Positions 1 through 17,280 of a stretch of DNA of 51,025 bases are shown one piece after another (within the stretch, counting starts at the first letter, position 1; every line of letters begins with the position of its first letter). The notes below the pieces were generated by a model. That model was not told the DNA's origin and did not search any database. It was given only the letters and a program-made list of their open reading frames with translations. The DNA is from Candidatus Magasanikiibacteriota bacterium (lineage in GTDB: Bacteria; Patescibacteriota; Patescibacteriia; Magasanikbacterales; UBA922), in assembly GCA_018651085.1 (NCBI GenBank), contig JABIEQ010000011.1:131598-182622 (forward strand), written 5' to 3'. Position numbers and translations under genes: made by a program.

Positions 1-837
1 TCGCAACTGATCAAAGGCCTCTTTTGCGAGTTCTTTATCCCCCACCATTATACTTATTTCTACGAGCATGTCAAGATATTTTGGATTTTGAGGCTCAAGA
101 TCTACTGCTTGCTCTACGGCTTCAAGGGCTGTATCGTTATGTCCAGCTTGTTTTAAAAGCTCAGCGACCTTAAAGAAACGCTTTGCTTTATGCGGACTTT
201 CCACTACTGCTTGTTGATAATATTCAACCGCTTTTTCTATATCTCCTTCTTCCTCGTGAAGTTCTCCTAAACGAACCATCACTTCATCATTTGTTTGATC
301 AATTTGAAGAAGAAATTTATATGTTTGTTTTGCTTCTTCGAACTGGTGCTGTTCATAATACACGTCACCTAATCCACGATACGCCTCTCCATTTTTTTGA
401 TCAATTCTAATAGCACTAATATACTTTTGTTCAGCAACCTCTAAATTCCCATCACTAAAGGCTTGGTCTGCTTGCTTTAATATAACGCGAAGATCATCAA
501 CTTGCTTTTGTTTTTTCTCAGGAGATACTTCTTTTTGTTTTTTTTGTGACTCATCAAATGCAGCTTGTTCTATTTTCCAAGCATAATCTCTAAATGATTG
601 CTGAAATTTTTTTAACTTTTCCATTACCGGTTGTAACTTTTCTCCACGTTTTTCTTGTCCTTCTTTTGATTTTTTCTCTACTCTTTTTTTGAAAATCTCT
701 TGTTTTTTGTTCTTTTCTTTCATTTCAGGAAGATTATCAATATCAAGAAGCGTCAGTTGTGGAAACTTCCGAATAATAATCACAATAATTACTGCAAAAG
801 AGAGTATAAGAAGGATAAATGGAAGTATGGTAAACAT
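1..837 (-). CDS. TPR-repeat membrane protein (C-terminus cut by window edge)
   Basis: The frame is open from an ATG at 835-837 to the window edge, giving 279 codons without a stop, so the 3' end is missing. The N-terminus (FTILPFILLILSFAVIIVII) is a single membrane anchor. A Lys/Glu-rich probable coiled coil covers about residues 35-115. After that come tetratricopeptide units, recognisable from the spacing of small and aromatic residues (AYRGLGDVYYEQHQFEEAK, then VMVRLGELHEEEGDIEKAVE and similar). TPR units are protein-protein scaffolds, and the orientation suggests a cytoplasmic scaffold tethered to the membrane. Only 10 nt separate it from tpiA upstream, so it is probably the last visible gene of the glyS operon. 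The partner is unknown. Confidence 0.8.
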   Translation of the reverse strand, partial: MFTILPFILLILSFAVIIVIIIRKFPQLTLLDIDNLPEMKEKNKKQEIFKKRVEKKSKEGQEKRGEKLQPVMEKLKKFQQSFRDYAWKIEQAAFDESQKKQKEVSPEKKQKQVDDLRVILKQADQAFSDGNLEVAEQKYISAIRIDQKNGEAYRGLGDVYYEQHQFEEAKQTYKFLLQIDQTNDEVMVRLGELHEEEGDIEKAVEYYQQAVVESPHKAKRFFKVAELLKQAGHNDTALEAVEQAVDLEPQNPKYLDMLVEISIMVGDKELAKEAFDQLR

Positions 838-847
838 AATAATGAAT

Positions 848-1585
848 TTACGAGGCAACAGCTTCAATGATACGAGAAAACTCTTCAATCTTTACTGACG
901 CGGACCCTACTAGCATCCCATCTATATGTGAAGAGCTCGCATATCCTGTCACGTTATCGGCATTTACACTCCCCCCATATAATATAGGGACTTGTACATC
1001 AGTAAACTCTGCAATTTGTTCTTTAATATAGATATGCATCTTTTCTGCTTCATCTGGGTCGCACGGTATCCCAGTTCCTACAGCCCACACTGGTTCATAG
1101 GCAACAAAGATCTTACTGTCCCCAATATTAAGCCCATCAAAGACACGCATGATTTGTTTTTTTATACGATACTCCTCTTTCCCATTATCCCTATCTTTTT
1201 GTGATTCACCAATACAAATGACTGGGATAATATTTTGTTCAAGACAAGCTTCGGTCTTTTTTCTTACATCAATATTTCTTTCTCCAAATATATACCGTCT
1301 TTCTGAATGTCCCACAAGAGCATACGTACAACCAATATTTTTATAGAGCATTGCAGAAGAAGCTCCAGTGTACGCACCTCTTGGCACCCAAGCAACATTT
1401 TGTGCACCTACAGAAACAGGTGTCCCTTCACATATTTCTGTTACATCTACCGCTGCTAATGGTGTTGGAAAGACAACACAATTGATATTGTCATGTGTCT
1501 TCCATGTATCTACTAATGTTTCTCCTAATACGCGAGATTCAACAACATCAAGATACATTTTCCAATTTGCGAATATATGTGTCAT
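848..1585 (-). CDS. tpiA: triosephosphate isomerase
   Basis: Interconverts dihydroxyacetone phosphate and glyceraldehyde 3-phosphate in glycolysis. At 245 residues it has the usual family length. Visible motifs are the N-terminal NWK with Lys8-9, catalytic His93 in VGHSERR, catalytic Glu164 in YEPVWAVGTG, and the phosphate loop YGGSV near residue 205. One departure: the normally conserved TGE(I/V)S loop reads TGASS (residues 73-77), so the Glu of that motif is replaced; the catalytic residues are intact. The gene lies 33 nt behind the M16 protease gene and 10 nt ahead of the TPR gene, within the T-box-controlled glyS transcription unit. Confidence 0.96.
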   Translation of the reverse strand: MTHIFANWKMYLDVVESRVLGETLVDTWKTHDNINCVVFPTPLAAVDVTEICEGTPVSVGAQNVAWVPRGAYTGASSAMLYKNIGCTYALVGHSERRYIFGERNIDVRKKTEACLEQNIIPVICIGESQKDRDNGKEEYRIKKQIMRVFDGLNIGDSKIFVAYEPVWAVGTGIPCDPDEAEKMHIYIKEQIAEFTDVQVPILYGGSVNADNVTGYASSSHIDGMLVGSASVKIEEFSRIIEAVAS

Positions 1586-1618: not shown

Positions 1619-2878
1619 TTATATAATAATAGCCTCTTTGTCAATGTCTCCAATCACTGCTACTCGCATTTGTGAAGACTTAAACATACGCTTTGCAAGT
1701 GCTTTTATTTGATCATTTGTAACAACATCAATTTCTTTTAGGGCTTCTTCTGGTGCTACTATTTTATCAATAAACAATGATTCATAGGTATACCATCTCG
1801 CTTGAGAGCTTGAGTCTTCTAAAGACAAGGTGAGACTTCCATTAATGTGTGTCTTTGCATCTTCCAGTTCTCTTTTTGTCACTCCTTTTTCAATAATTTT
1901 TTGAATTTCTTTTTGCACGATCTTAATTGTTTTATTGATATTTTTTGCATCAAGTCCTGCTTGTACGTAAATTGATCCAGTATCTCTAAAATTCTGATAT
2001 CCTGCTCGTACACTGTAGGCTAATCCTTTCTTTTCTCTTATTTGTGTAAACAATCTTGAACTCATTGATCCTCCAAGAATAGTAGTAAGTACCCACAACA
2101 CAGCATTCTTTTTTGAATTGTTATACGCAAATCCAGGCCAACCGAGCATTAATTGTGCTTGATCGGTTTTTTTATGTTCAACTTTAACTCTGTCACCTTT
2201 TTTTGCTGAACAATATATTGCCGGTGCATATGTTTTTGACACCTTATTGGTATTTTTTTGCTTTCCGAAATATTTTTCTACCAATTCTTTTGTTTCTTCC
2301 GTTACAGCTCCAGCAAGTACAATGGTCATGTTCTCTGGTTGATAGAATTTGTTTCTATACGAAATCACGTCTTTAGGAAGATAACTTAATACTCGCTTTT
2401 CGTCTCCTGCTATATCAGTTCCTAATGCTCCTTCAAACATAACATTATCAAGCACTGATCCAATGTTCATGATTGGATTATCATTATACATGCGAATTTC
2501 TTCAACAATCACGGTCTTTTCTTTTTCCATGTCTTTTTCTCGAAATACTGAACCAAAAAGCATGTCTGAGAGAATGTCTAATGCCGTTTCTGTGTATTTT
2601 GCATCTGTTTTAATGTAATACCCAGTAGCTTCTTTTCCAGTAAAGGCATTATATTCTGCACCTAACCGATCAATTTCTCTTGTCAGTGTTAGGCTGTCTT
2701 TTCGTTTCTTGGTTCCTTTGAACATCATGTGCTCAATGAAATGAGATACTCCAGCCATCTTTTTTGATTCATAACGTGATCCCACTGGATACATAATCAT
2801 GGTTGTGATTGATTTTGTATCGTGCTGTGGTACCAAAATAATATTTGCGCGGTTTCCTAGTGAGTATTTTTCAAACAT
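1619..2878 (-). CDS. M16-family zinc peptidase
   Basis: A pitrilysin/processing-peptidase type metallopeptidase of 419 residues, the length of the single-unit bacterial M16 proteins. The inverted zinc motif HFIEH is at residues 46-50, and the third ligand is supplied by the EE pair in VIVEEIRMY near residues 126-127, about 76 residues later as the family requires. The C-terminal half has the substrate-binding M16_C features (GWPGFAYNN, then SSRLFTQIREKKGLAYSV). No signal peptide is visible, so it probably acts on peptides in the cytoplasm. It starts 3 nt after the glyS stop and is translationally close to it. The biological substrate cannot be told from sequence. Confidence 0.93.
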   Translation of the reverse strand: MFEKYSLGNRANIILVPQHDTKSITTMIMYPVGSRYESKKMAGVSHFIEHMMFKGTKKRKDSLTLTREIDRLGAEYNAFTGKEATGYYIKTDAKYTETALDILSDMLFGSVFREKDMEKEKTVIVEEIRMYNDNPIMNIGSVLDNVMFEGALGTDIAGDEKRVLSYLPKDVISYRNKFYQPENMTIVLAGAVTEETKELVEKYFGKQKNTNKVSKTYAPAIYCSAKKGDRVKVEHKKTDQAQLMLGWPGFAYNNSKKNAVLWVLTTILGGSMSSRLFTQIREKKGLAYSVRAGYQNFRDTGSIYVQAGLDAKNINKTIKIVQKEIQKIIEKGVTKRELEDAKTHINGSLTLSLEDSSSQARWYTYESLFIDKIVAPEEALKEIDVVTNDQIKALAKRMFKSSQMRVAVIGDIDKEAIII

Positions 2879-2881
2879 AGA

Positions 2882-4249
2882 TTATACAGAAAATGCATCA
2901 GTAAAAAATGAAGGGAGGTCTGTTATTGCGATTCGTTCTTGTTCCATAGTATCTCTATCTCGCACTGTTACTCGATGGTCTTCTAGACTCTCAAAGTCTA
3001 CAGTGACACAATATGGCGTACCTATTTGATCTTGGCGACGATATCGTTTTCCAATTGACCCTGTTTCGTCATATTGAGTCATATAATTATACCACAGTTT
3101 TTGTTGTATTTCTTTAGCTAACTTTTGAAGTGGTTCTTTTTTTGATAGTGGAAAAATAGCCATTTTTATTGGTGCAAGTGATTTATGAAATCGAAGGACG
3201 ACTTCCTTATCATGCTTTGACTGATCTGATCCATCTCGTTCATCATACGCGTCAGCAAGGAAGGCGAGAGTTGCTCGATCTGCTCCATCGGCTGTTTCAA
3301 TAATGTGTGGCGTAATTTTTTCTCCTGTTTCTTGATAAAAATACGTCAGATCTTGCCCACTAAACTCTTGGTGACGAGAAAGATCCCAATCTCCTCTATC
3401 ATGAATCCCAGCAAGCTCTTTAAATCCAAGCCCTGGGTAGTTATATTCAATGTCAGTTGCATTCTTTGCGTAGTGTGCTAACTCATCTGGTCTGTGATCA
3501 CGAAAACGAAGGTTCTCTTCTTTTATTCCAAGATCTTTATACCATTGCATCCGTAACTCTTTCCACATTTCAAATATATCTCCTTTTCCTTCTGGATGCA
3601 CAAAATATTGTTGTTCCATCTGTTCAAACTCACGTGTTCTAAACGTAAAGTTTCCTGGAGTAATTTCATTTCTAAATGATTTTCCAATTTGCGCGATTCC
3701 AAACGGTAGTTTTCTTCGCATACTTTGTTGTACATGCACAAAGTTGGTATAAATTCCTTGGCATGTCTCTGGTCGAAGGTAAATTTCATTTGCACTGTCT
3801 TCAAGTGGCCCCATGAATGTTTTAAACATGAGGTTAAAATTTCTTACTCCAGTTAACTCTCCTTCACAACTTGGGCACACCATATTATGTTTTTCCCAAG
3901 TTCCCGGTCTAAAATCTGGCTCAATTCCTTTGTCTTCAAGAAGATGATCAGCTCGCCATCTTTTTTTACATTTTTTACAATCAACAAGAGGATCGCTAAA
4001 TCCTTCAAGGTGACCACTTGCTTCCCAAACACGAGGGTGCATTAAAATTGCGGCATCAAGCCCTACTACATCACCTCTCATTTGTACCATAGCTTTCCAC
4101 CACGCTTTTTTTACATTATTTTTAAGTTCAACCCCAAGTGGACCATAATCATAACTACTTGAAAGTCCCCCATAAATTTCTGAAGATGGATAGATGAATC
4201 CTCGTTGTTTTGAGAGCGACACGATGTGCTCTAATGATGTTTTTTCCAT
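2882..4249 (-). CDS. glyS: glycyl-tRNA synthetase, class II homodimer type
   Basis: Charges tRNA-Gly with glycine. The 455-residue protein is the alpha2 (eukaryote/archaea/Gram-positive) type rather than the alpha/beta heterotetramer. It opens with the family signature RGFIYPSSEIYGG and DYGPLG. Cys pairs CKKC (near residue 90) and CPSC (near 130) form a likely zinc site. Class II motif 2 reads FRNEITPGNFTFRTREFEQ, motif 3 reads GADRATLAFL, and the C-terminal anticodon-binding domain follows (LAPIKMAIFPLSKKE). It is the first gene of a unit with M16 peptidase, tpiA and a TPR gene. Its leader carries a T-box-like element, described separately, which fits glycine-dependent attenuation. Confidence 0.97.
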   Translation of the reverse strand: MEKTSLEHIVSLSKQRGFIYPSSEIYGGLSSSYDYGPLGVELKNNVKKAWWKAMVQMRGDVVGLDAAILMHPRVWEASGHLEGFSDPLVDCKKCKKRWRADHLLEDKGIEPDFRPGTWEKHNMVCPSCEGELTGVRNFNLMFKTFMGPLEDSANEIYLRPETCQGIYTNFVHVQQSMRRKLPFGIAQIGKSFRNEITPGNFTFRTREFEQMEQQYFVHPEGKGDIFEMWKELRMQWYKDLGIKEENLRFRDHRPDELAHYAKNATDIEYNYPGLGFKELAGIHDRGDWDLSRHQEFSGQDLTYFYQETGEKITPHIIETADGADRATLAFLADAYDERDGSDQSKHDKEVVLRFHKSLAPIKMAIFPLSKKEPLQKLAKEIQQKLWYNYMTQYDETGSIGKRYRRQDQIGTPYCVTVDFESLEDHRVTVRDRDTMEQERIAITDLPSFFTDAFSV

Positions 4250-4416
4250 ATGATATTGATGTTAAAATATCTATTTTTTTCTATTAAAAAAAGACAGCCT
4301 GTACTGTCTTGGGACCCCGAAGGGCGGTTCCACCCAAGTTCTTTTCCTTGAAAAGCACCTTGATGTGTTGTCTATCTCACTCCACAGACGCCACTCTGCT
4401 TCATAGTGAAGATAAG
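4250..4416 (-). promoter_or_regulatory. glycine T-box riboswitch candidate, ultra-short Stem I
   Basis: The leader between the promoter and glyS, read on the minus strand, has every part of a T-box. Stem I is 9 bp: 4405-4414 pairs with 4373-4381 with one bulged T. Inside it a 5-bp hairpin (4395-4399 with 4384-4388) has a 6-nt loop at 4389-4394 reading GTGGCG, which contains the Gly codon GGC. A second hairpin, CTTTTC-AAG-GAAAAG, resembles Stem III. The T-box core GGGTGGAACCGCC covers 4325-4335 and includes the UGGN bulge that would pair with the tRNA acceptor end. CTTGGG (4333-4338) pairs with CCCAAG (4308-4313) to form the antiterminator, which overlaps the terminator arm. The specifier in a terminal loop recalls the ultra-short class described for actinobacterial ileS. 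Confidence 0.85.
4286..4310 (-). terminator. T-box terminator hairpin upstream of glyS
   Basis: On the minus strand AAGACAG (4304-4310) pairs with CTGTCTT (4291-4297), followed by a run of seven T (4286-4292). Bases 4308-4310 are shared with the antiterminator arm CCCAAG, so the two helices exclude each other, as in attenuating T-boxes. Confidence 0.85.
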
Positions 4417-4419
4417 TCT

Positions 4420-4447
4420 ATTATACGCCTTTTTATATTAGTGTCAA
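4420..4447 (-). promoter_or_regulatory. sigma-70-type promoter of the glyS unit
   Basis: The -35 TTGACA is at 4442-4447 and the -10 TATAAT at 4420-4425 on the minus strand, with a 16-bp spacer. Both hexamers are perfect consensus. It begins just past the dtd stop, and the predicted RNA would start at about 4413-4415, at the first base of T-box Stem I. Confidence 0.85.
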
Positions 4448-17176: not shown

Positions 17177-17248
17177 GGCCCCATCGTCTAATGGTTAGGA
17201 TACTTGGTTTTCATCCAAGAGATAGGGGTTCGATTCCCCTTGGGGCTA
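17177..17248 (+). tRNA. tRNA-Glu (anticodon TTC)
   Basis: A 72-nt cloverleaf. Acceptor GGCCCCA pairs with TGGGGCT (first pair G-U), the D arm contains TCTAATGGTTAGGA, the anticodon stem CTTGG/CCAAG encloses a loop with TTC, and the T arm is AGGGG-TTCGATT-CCCCT. The discriminator is A and CCA is not encoded. It has its own promoter and a strong terminator, so it is a single-gene unit. Confidence 0.95.
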
Positions 17249-17280
17249 CACTAAACGTCGTTCTGAACGACGCAAATCTA

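Follow-up and report, generated by a model that had tools for sequence, protein, structure and literature searches.

A putative glycine T-box leader with an ultrashort, kinked Stem I and no Stem II, predicted to attenuate transcription of glyS in a Patescibacterium

Four classes of T-box riboswitch have been described (PMC10482949). In Class III, Stem I is short and displays the specifier in an apical loop of 5-6 nt, Stem II is needed and control is mostly translational (PMC10482949). A kink-turn (K-turn) in Stem I has been described for the ileS T-box (PMC10651847), and YbxF is able to stabilise the K-turns of T-boxes (PMC10482949). A long Stem I with an IDTM is generally required where T-boxes act on transcription (PMC7583486), and the published classes all reinforce the codon-anticodon contact, either via an elbow-binding IDTM or via the S-turn of Stem II (PMC10482949). 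The regulation of aminoacyl-tRNA synthetase genes in Patescibacteria is hardly known, and we found no link of T-boxes with Patescibacteria or CPR in the open-access literature searched (subscription papers and the TBDB tables were outside the scope of the search).

We analysed a window of 51,025 nt (i.e. the whole stretch of DNA under study) from a Candidatus Magasanikiibacteriota bacterium. On the minus strand of this window, dtd (4904-4455) and glyS (4249-2882) flank a T-box leader. The host genome comprises 0.95 Mb in 17 contigs and is 99% complete. The closest named relatives of its GlyS are encoded by Candidatus Magasanikbacteria MAGs (72-77% identity), and the host is therefore a Patescibacterium, as a preliminary description made from the sequence alone had thought probable. 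We consider it very likely that the leader is a transcription-attenuating T-box riboswitch for tRNA-Gly(GCC); this function is inferred, and there are no binding or termination data.

Anatomy of the leader and its operon

The whole leader, of ∼128 nt, is located between the promoter (4447-4420) and glyS. Its parts and the genes that follow it are listed below; all are on the minus strand.

4442-4447, minus strand: -35 hexamer TTGACA, a consensus match
4420-4425, minus strand: -10 hexamer TATAAT, a consensus match
4373-4414, minus strand: Stem I, 42 nt, from RNA folding and covariation
4390-4392, minus strand: specifier GGC (Gly), complementary to anticodon GCC, supported by the Gly codons kept in the leaders of the family
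4356-4372, minus strand: 17-nt linker replacing Stem II, with the RRRNG motif AGGUG (4360-4356) at its 3' end
4341-4355, minus strand: Stem III, CUUUUC-AAG-GAAAAG, followed by AA (4340-4339); helix 3 of the covariation analysis
4326-4332, minus strand: T-box bulge UGGAACC, in which UGGA is the complement of the UCCA that ends tRNA-Gly (U73)
4308-4338, minus strand: antiterminator, A1 (CUUGGG/CCCAAG) and A2 (GCCC-UUCG-GGGU); covariation helices 4 and 5
4286-4310, minus strand: intrinsic terminator, AAGACAG-loop-CUGUCUU then UUUUU, whose first three bases AAG also close A1
2882-4249, minus strand: glyS, glycyl-tRNA synthetase, 455 aa (Pfam PF00587 and PF03129)
1619-2878, minus strand: M16 peptidase gene, the probable second gene of the operon, starting 3 nt past glyS
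848-1585, minus strand: tpiA, triosephosphate isomerase, 33 nt after the M16 gene; co-transcription inferred from spacing
1-888, minus strand: gene which we take to be TPR-like (an assignment from the preliminary description only), overlapping tpiA and running off the window; co-transcription inferred

The promoter (TTGACA-16-TATAAT) matches the consensus at 12 of 12 positions, and its position puts the expected start of transcription near 4413, at the base of Stem I. The preliminary description had drawn Stem I as a 9-bp stem with GGC in its terminal loop. The GGC loop held, but the single plain stem did not: Stem I consists of a base helix with one bulged U (UAUC-(U)-UCAC/GUGA-GAUA), a K-turn made of a 3-nt bulge UAU (4405-4403) and of GA (4402-4401) opposite GA (4382-4381), and an upper helix of 4-5 bp (CAGA/UCUG) capped by the apical hexaloop GUGGCG (4394-4389). 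There is no Stem II in the leader: Stem I and Stem III are just 17 nt apart, and a linker of this length led us to reject a cryptic Stem II. Two other leaders of the family (L004 and L024) have long linkers, which are likely to be lineage insertions.

The RRRNG motif of T-boxes has been described previously (PMC7778990), and here the arrangement RRRNG-Stem III-AA is present as AGGUG-[CUUUUC AAG GAAAAG]-AA and is kept in most leaders of the family. The T-box core GGGTGGAACCGCC occupies positions 4335-4323 of the minus strand; the A1 strands are CUUGGG (4338-4333) and CCCAAG (4313-4308). The terminator hairpin with its U-run ends 36 nt before the glyS start codon. RNAfold also returned a competing helix, in which UCAAG of the linker pairs with CUUGG of the 5' strand of A1. 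The perfect promoter, the Stem III-like hairpin, the T-box core followed by glyS, and the antiterminator CTTGGG/CCCAAG sharing three bases (AAG) with a T-tailed terminator had all been noted in the preliminary description and all held; the K-turn, the absence of Stem II and the spread of the element across the phylum to thrS and serS had been overlooked. Promoter and terminator matches in a single sequence are weak evidence, with terminator-like sites occurring at 0.5 per kb in shuffled sequence.

It had also been claimed that the leader controls the M16 protease gene, tpiA and the TPR gene. This claim proved weaker than stated, resting as it does on gene spacing or overlap and on the order glyS-M16, which is conserved in at least 17 loci of the family. 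On these grounds we infer that the M16 gene is likely to be co-regulated with glyS, while co-regulation of tpiA and the TPR-like gene is no more than plausible. The sole tRNA gene in the window encodes tRNA-Glu(UUC) (17177-17249, plus strand).

Conservation, covariation and distribution

A close GlyS homologue was present in 43 of the 46 genomes of the family. Reading of the upstream DNA showed the element before glyS in ∼31 of the 42 assessable genomes, i.e. 30 leaders with the element plus one (L013) broken off beyond Stem I by an assembly gap; the element was missing before glyS in 11 (about a quarter), and one further glyS, at a contig end, fell outside the 42. The covariation alignment (alignment A2, as distinct from helix A2) contained 30 leaders, 28 from the family set together with L144 and, from a sister family, L157. 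In these leaders 96.7% of base-pair cells were paired, compared with a mean of 74.0% in shuffles and 34-54% in slid controls, and compensatory change on both sides was seen in 18 of the 22 base pairs. Doubly changed cells numbered 172, against 52 expected from the shuffles, and none of 500 shuffles reached any of the covariation measures. Both sides had changed in all nine pairs of Stem I (helices 1 and 2), every cell of Stem III (helix 3) was paired, and in the antiterminator 98.9% of A1 cells and 95.8% of A2 cells were paired, with changes on both sides in 6 of its 10 pairs. Both the alignment and the covariance model R1 (see below) were fitted to the structure, so the paired count leans towards it, and one leader (L146) was misaligned by an insertion of its own. 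Even so, given how large the effect is and how the slid controls behave, there is little reason to doubt that the covariation is real.

The K-turn is retained in nearly all leaders, and ACAA of the linker (after Stem I) and RRRNG are kept in most. All 29 family leaders examined have a promoter-like pair (at least 8 of 12 positions matching) before Stem I, usually 2-5 nt from it. All 29 also have a U-tailed hairpin 3' of the antiterminator, and most of these hairpins begin with the very RAG by which A1 is closed. In a few leaders, including that of the window, the automatic terminator finder picked other hairpins, and these leaders were read by eye. In the leaders of G002, G024 and G025, by contrast, the terminator is long and overlaps the whole of A1.

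Some leaders depart further from this layout. Four glyS leaders (L009 in G043, L044 in G002, L038 in G024 and L040 in G025) have no clear Stem III, e.g. AGUGAAAUUUCGGGUGG, and represent an even smaller form of the element. Before glyS of G029 (L006) all that is left is a stretch resembling a promoter, together with the 3' terminator half (GAUCCCAAGACC...GGUCUUUUU), as if the tRNA-reading part had been deleted.

The preliminary description had proposed searching with the Rfam T-box model (RF00230) and with an ultrashort model, and looking for covariation in the glyS leaders of relatives. The last of these is answered above, as both Stem I and the antiterminator covary. RF00230 gave only a sub-threshold match to the leader, 22.1 bits against a gathering cut-off of 93 (E = 0.004 in 301 nt), limited to the 3' half, i.e. 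the Stem III region, the core and the antiterminator; at the gathering cut-off, and when run over the leader's own genome, it missed the glyS leader. The custom model R1, built from 14 glyS leaders of the family, does find the element. At E ≤ 0.1 it matched in 82 of 380 Patescibacteria genomes, the downstream genes being mainly thrS, ileS/valS and glyS, with one serS. It also matched in 32 of 151 Chloroflexota genomes. At E ≤ 0.1 there was no match in 61 Bacteroidota genomes, nor in the Bacteroidota genomes reached through loci (best E-value 0.26). RF00230 itself matched in 82 of 240 Patescibacteria genomes at E ≤ 0.1 but exceeded its own cut-off in just 8 of the 240, so that T-boxes are common in Patescibacteria and mostly missed by standard annotation; used at its cut-off, the Rfam model misses most such elements.

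The host genome contains a second T-box, before thrS (L001/L046, contig C3, 23831-24078, minus strand). Its Stem I is long, with GGUACCAC close to the 3' end, and its core is UGGAACC. Neither Stem II nor Stem III is visible, and the overlap of the terminator with A1 is complete. Such a leader would be a Class II-like T-box specific for threonine, Class II being described as glycine-specific. A further RF00230 match in the same genome (L002, contig C13, 85887-86002, minus strand) is very weak (10 bits, E = 4).

The specifier in the glyS leaders of the family is mostly GGC, and GGA in three (G019, G024 and G025); both are Gly codons, and the host genome encodes both tRNA-Gly(GCC) and tRNA-Gly(UCC), each with U73. 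Across Patescibacteria the ultrashort Stem I displays GGC or GGA before glyS, ACC, ACU or ACG before thrS, and AGC before serS. When thrS leaders were scanned with a hairpin detector given no information beyond helices, K-turn and loop length, it returned 12 ultrashort hairpins. The loop contained ACN in 11 of them, compared with 18 matches among 1160 shuffles. Since R1 derives from glyS leaders alone, the specifier is here tested independently. Among the 11, L231 (with ACA at the edge of the loop) is probably spurious; ACC is also carried by one thrS leader beyond the 12 (L214). The counts are lower bounds, since the detector misses base helices with bulges (it chose the wrong hairpin in L144). 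The single serS leader (L240, in G308) has an ultrashort K-turn Stem I with AGC and the bulge UGGCACC.

The fourth base of the bulge is A in all glyS and thrS leaders, U in 9 of 10 ileS and 4 of 4 valS leaders, and C before serS; the discriminators of the host's own tRNAs are U73 (Gly, Thr), A73 (Ile, Val) and G73 (Ser). The fourth bulge base thus tracks the tRNA discriminator across genes of the phylum, as shown by sequence comparison. Wide tRNA-dependent attenuation of aminoacyl-tRNA synthetase genes in Patescibacteria is thereby indicated, as an inference from sequence.

Related features were also seen before other genes. An ultrashort K-turn hairpin with ACU in its loop (L158, in G060) precedes a gene for a 196-aa protein without Pfam or NCBIfam match, and at three loci (L160 in G413, L188 in G017 and L199 in G018) the nearest long ORF downstream of a T-box-like core UGGAACC encodes a GNAT acetyltransferase, not a synthetase.

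Proposed switching and alternative explanations

Nearest-neighbour energies were computed for the leader in the absence of tRNA. The terminator form, in which Stem I and a Stem III extended by linker/A1 pairing (UCAAG/CUUGG, CAC/GUG) are combined with A2 and the terminator, has an energy of -40.4 kcal/mol. The antiterminator form has -30.5 kcal/mol without the terminator and -34.6 kcal/mol with a terminator shortened by three pairs; before the terminator has been transcribed the antiterminator form is the minimum, at -31.3 kcal/mol. The lower energy of the terminator form implies that the default state would be OFF and that an extra gain from tRNA would be needed to hold A1 closed. Antiterminator and terminator share only three bases and may therefore partly coexist (-34.6 vs -40.4 kcal/mol). 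When linker and A1 were compared over the family, CUC of A1 occurred with GAG in the linker in 8 of 8 cases, and CUU with AAG in 12 and with GAG in 3 (Fisher p = 3e-4, phylogeny not corrected). This pattern agrees with what an exchange helix would require but is suggestive only; common descent, or contact through the minor groove once tRNA is bound, could also account for it.

The anatomy, the covariation, the matches of specifier and discriminator and the presence of the terminator are shown by sequence and comparison. The mechanism that we propose, i.e. tRNA binding, charging-dependent switching, exchange of AAG and operon-wide control, is inferred from them. The leader would present three tRNA-facing parts: the kinked Stem I showing GGC, the single-stranded linker with Stem III, and the discriminator formed by the bulge and A1/A2. 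Stem I would fold on leaving RNA polymerase, and GGC would pair with the anticodon. If the tRNA is uncharged, its 3' end UCCA would pair with UGGA of the bulge and lock A1/A2, including the CUU/AAG pairs; the locked A1 would withhold AAG from the terminator, so that glyS and probably the M16 gene would be transcribed. If tRNA-Gly is charged, glycine would block the 3' end and A1 would open; UCAAG of the linker could then pair with CUUGG, AAG would join the terminator and transcription would stop. The most surprising step is the binding of tRNA without an IDTM or Stem II, which this reading requires, and a leader lacking both must decide before RNA polymerase reaches the terminator. As a natural RNA of only ∼128 nt, it makes the minimal requirements of a T-box directly testable.

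Several alternatives were weighed against this reading. The leader could control translation like actinobacterial Class III T-boxes, with the 3' hairpin acting as a sequestrator; its Stem I is laid out as in Class III, with a K-turn and an apical specifier loop of 5-6 nt, and Class III is mostly translational. However, the hairpin and its U-run end 36 nt before the start codon and so leave the ribosome site uncovered, and the U-tailed hairpin recurs in 29 of 29 family leaders. Translational control was therefore rejected, as the hairpin does not overlap the ribosome site, and we regard it as very unlikely. The leader could also be a degenerate T-box whose terminator or promoter is now constitutive. 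In favour of this, some genomes of the family have lost the element, G029 seemingly keeping only the terminator half and the promoter, and some leaders lack Stem III. Against it, all variable helices show compensatory changes and the specifier and bulge are kept, which indicates selection, and degeneration is likewise very improbable. Chance hairpins, or another kind of attenuator such as a leader peptide or a protein-binding RNA, would be compatible with the weakness of single-sequence consensus matches and the background frequency of terminator-like sites given above, but are all but ruled out by the family-wide conservation and covariation and by the codon and discriminator matches across genes.

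The alternative that is hardest to dismiss is that a K-turn-binding protein, or a hidden fold of the linker involving the conserved ACAA, replaces the IDTM and Stem II. The K-turn is present in nearly all leaders, the linker keeps ACAA and RRRNG in most, and stabilisation of T-box K-turns by YbxF is known (PMC10482949); however, apart from the linker/A1 exchange, neither covariation nor folding revealed a compensatory helix in the linker. We lean against such a helper. It is in any case compatible with the transcription-attenuating T-box that we prefer, and would alter the binding step only. The preliminary proposal of a glycine T-box with an ultrashort Stem I and attenuation is thus supported by the covariation, by the match to tRNA-Gly(GCC) with U73 and by the terminator, its function remaining an inference.

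Comparison with known T-box classes

The leader meets all of the defining features of a T-box that can be tested on sequence: a specifier, a UGGN bulge matched to the discriminator, A1/A2, RRRNG-Stem III-AA and an alternative terminator (switching itself being inferred). We therefore call it a T-box riboswitch; it stays below the RF00230 gathering cut-off. Like the Class III ileS T-boxes of Nocardia farcinica and Mycobacterium tuberculosis (PMC10482949, PMC10651847), it has a short Stem I with a K-turn and without IDTM, a specifier in an apical loop of 5-6 nt, the same UGGN core and A1/A2. It differs from them in having neither Stem II nor a IIA/B pseudoknot and a 17-nt linker instead, in being specific for Gly (Thr and Ser in relatives) whereas Class III is specific for Ile, and in using a terminator where Class III sequesters the ribosome site. 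The Class III criteria are thus met for Stem I, the K-turn and the apical loop, and not met for Stem II and translational control. That an ultrashort Stem I combined with attenuation is unusual, as the preliminary description had suggested, is supported, Class III being mostly translational and in need of Stem II.

With the Class II glyQS T-box of Bacillus subtilis the leader shares glycine, a single-stranded linker in place of Stem II and transcription attenuation. However, glyQS has a long Stem I with the specifier in an internal loop and a distal IDTM on the tRNA elbow, criteria that the leader fails, having no parts beyond the specifier; its layout also serves Thr and Ser in relatives. The glyS T-boxes of Chloroflexota (L278, L282, L288 and others) resemble it in the UGGAACC core, the GGC specifier and the gene that follows, but their Stem I is longer, and the GGC, within AAUGGCGA, seems when read by eye to sit in an internal loop, on its 3' side.

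The leader therefore combines the Stem I of Class III with the linker and platform of Class II and has the tRNA-holding device of neither, and its architecture falls outside Classes I-IV. On balance, and with only a narrow margin of confidence, we favour the bolder reading that this is a fifth T-box architecture, widespread in Patescibacteria and used in transcriptional T-boxes for Gly, Thr and Ser, which, contrary to the published classes, would rely on the codon-anticodon and bulge-acceptor contacts only, without IDTM or Stem II.
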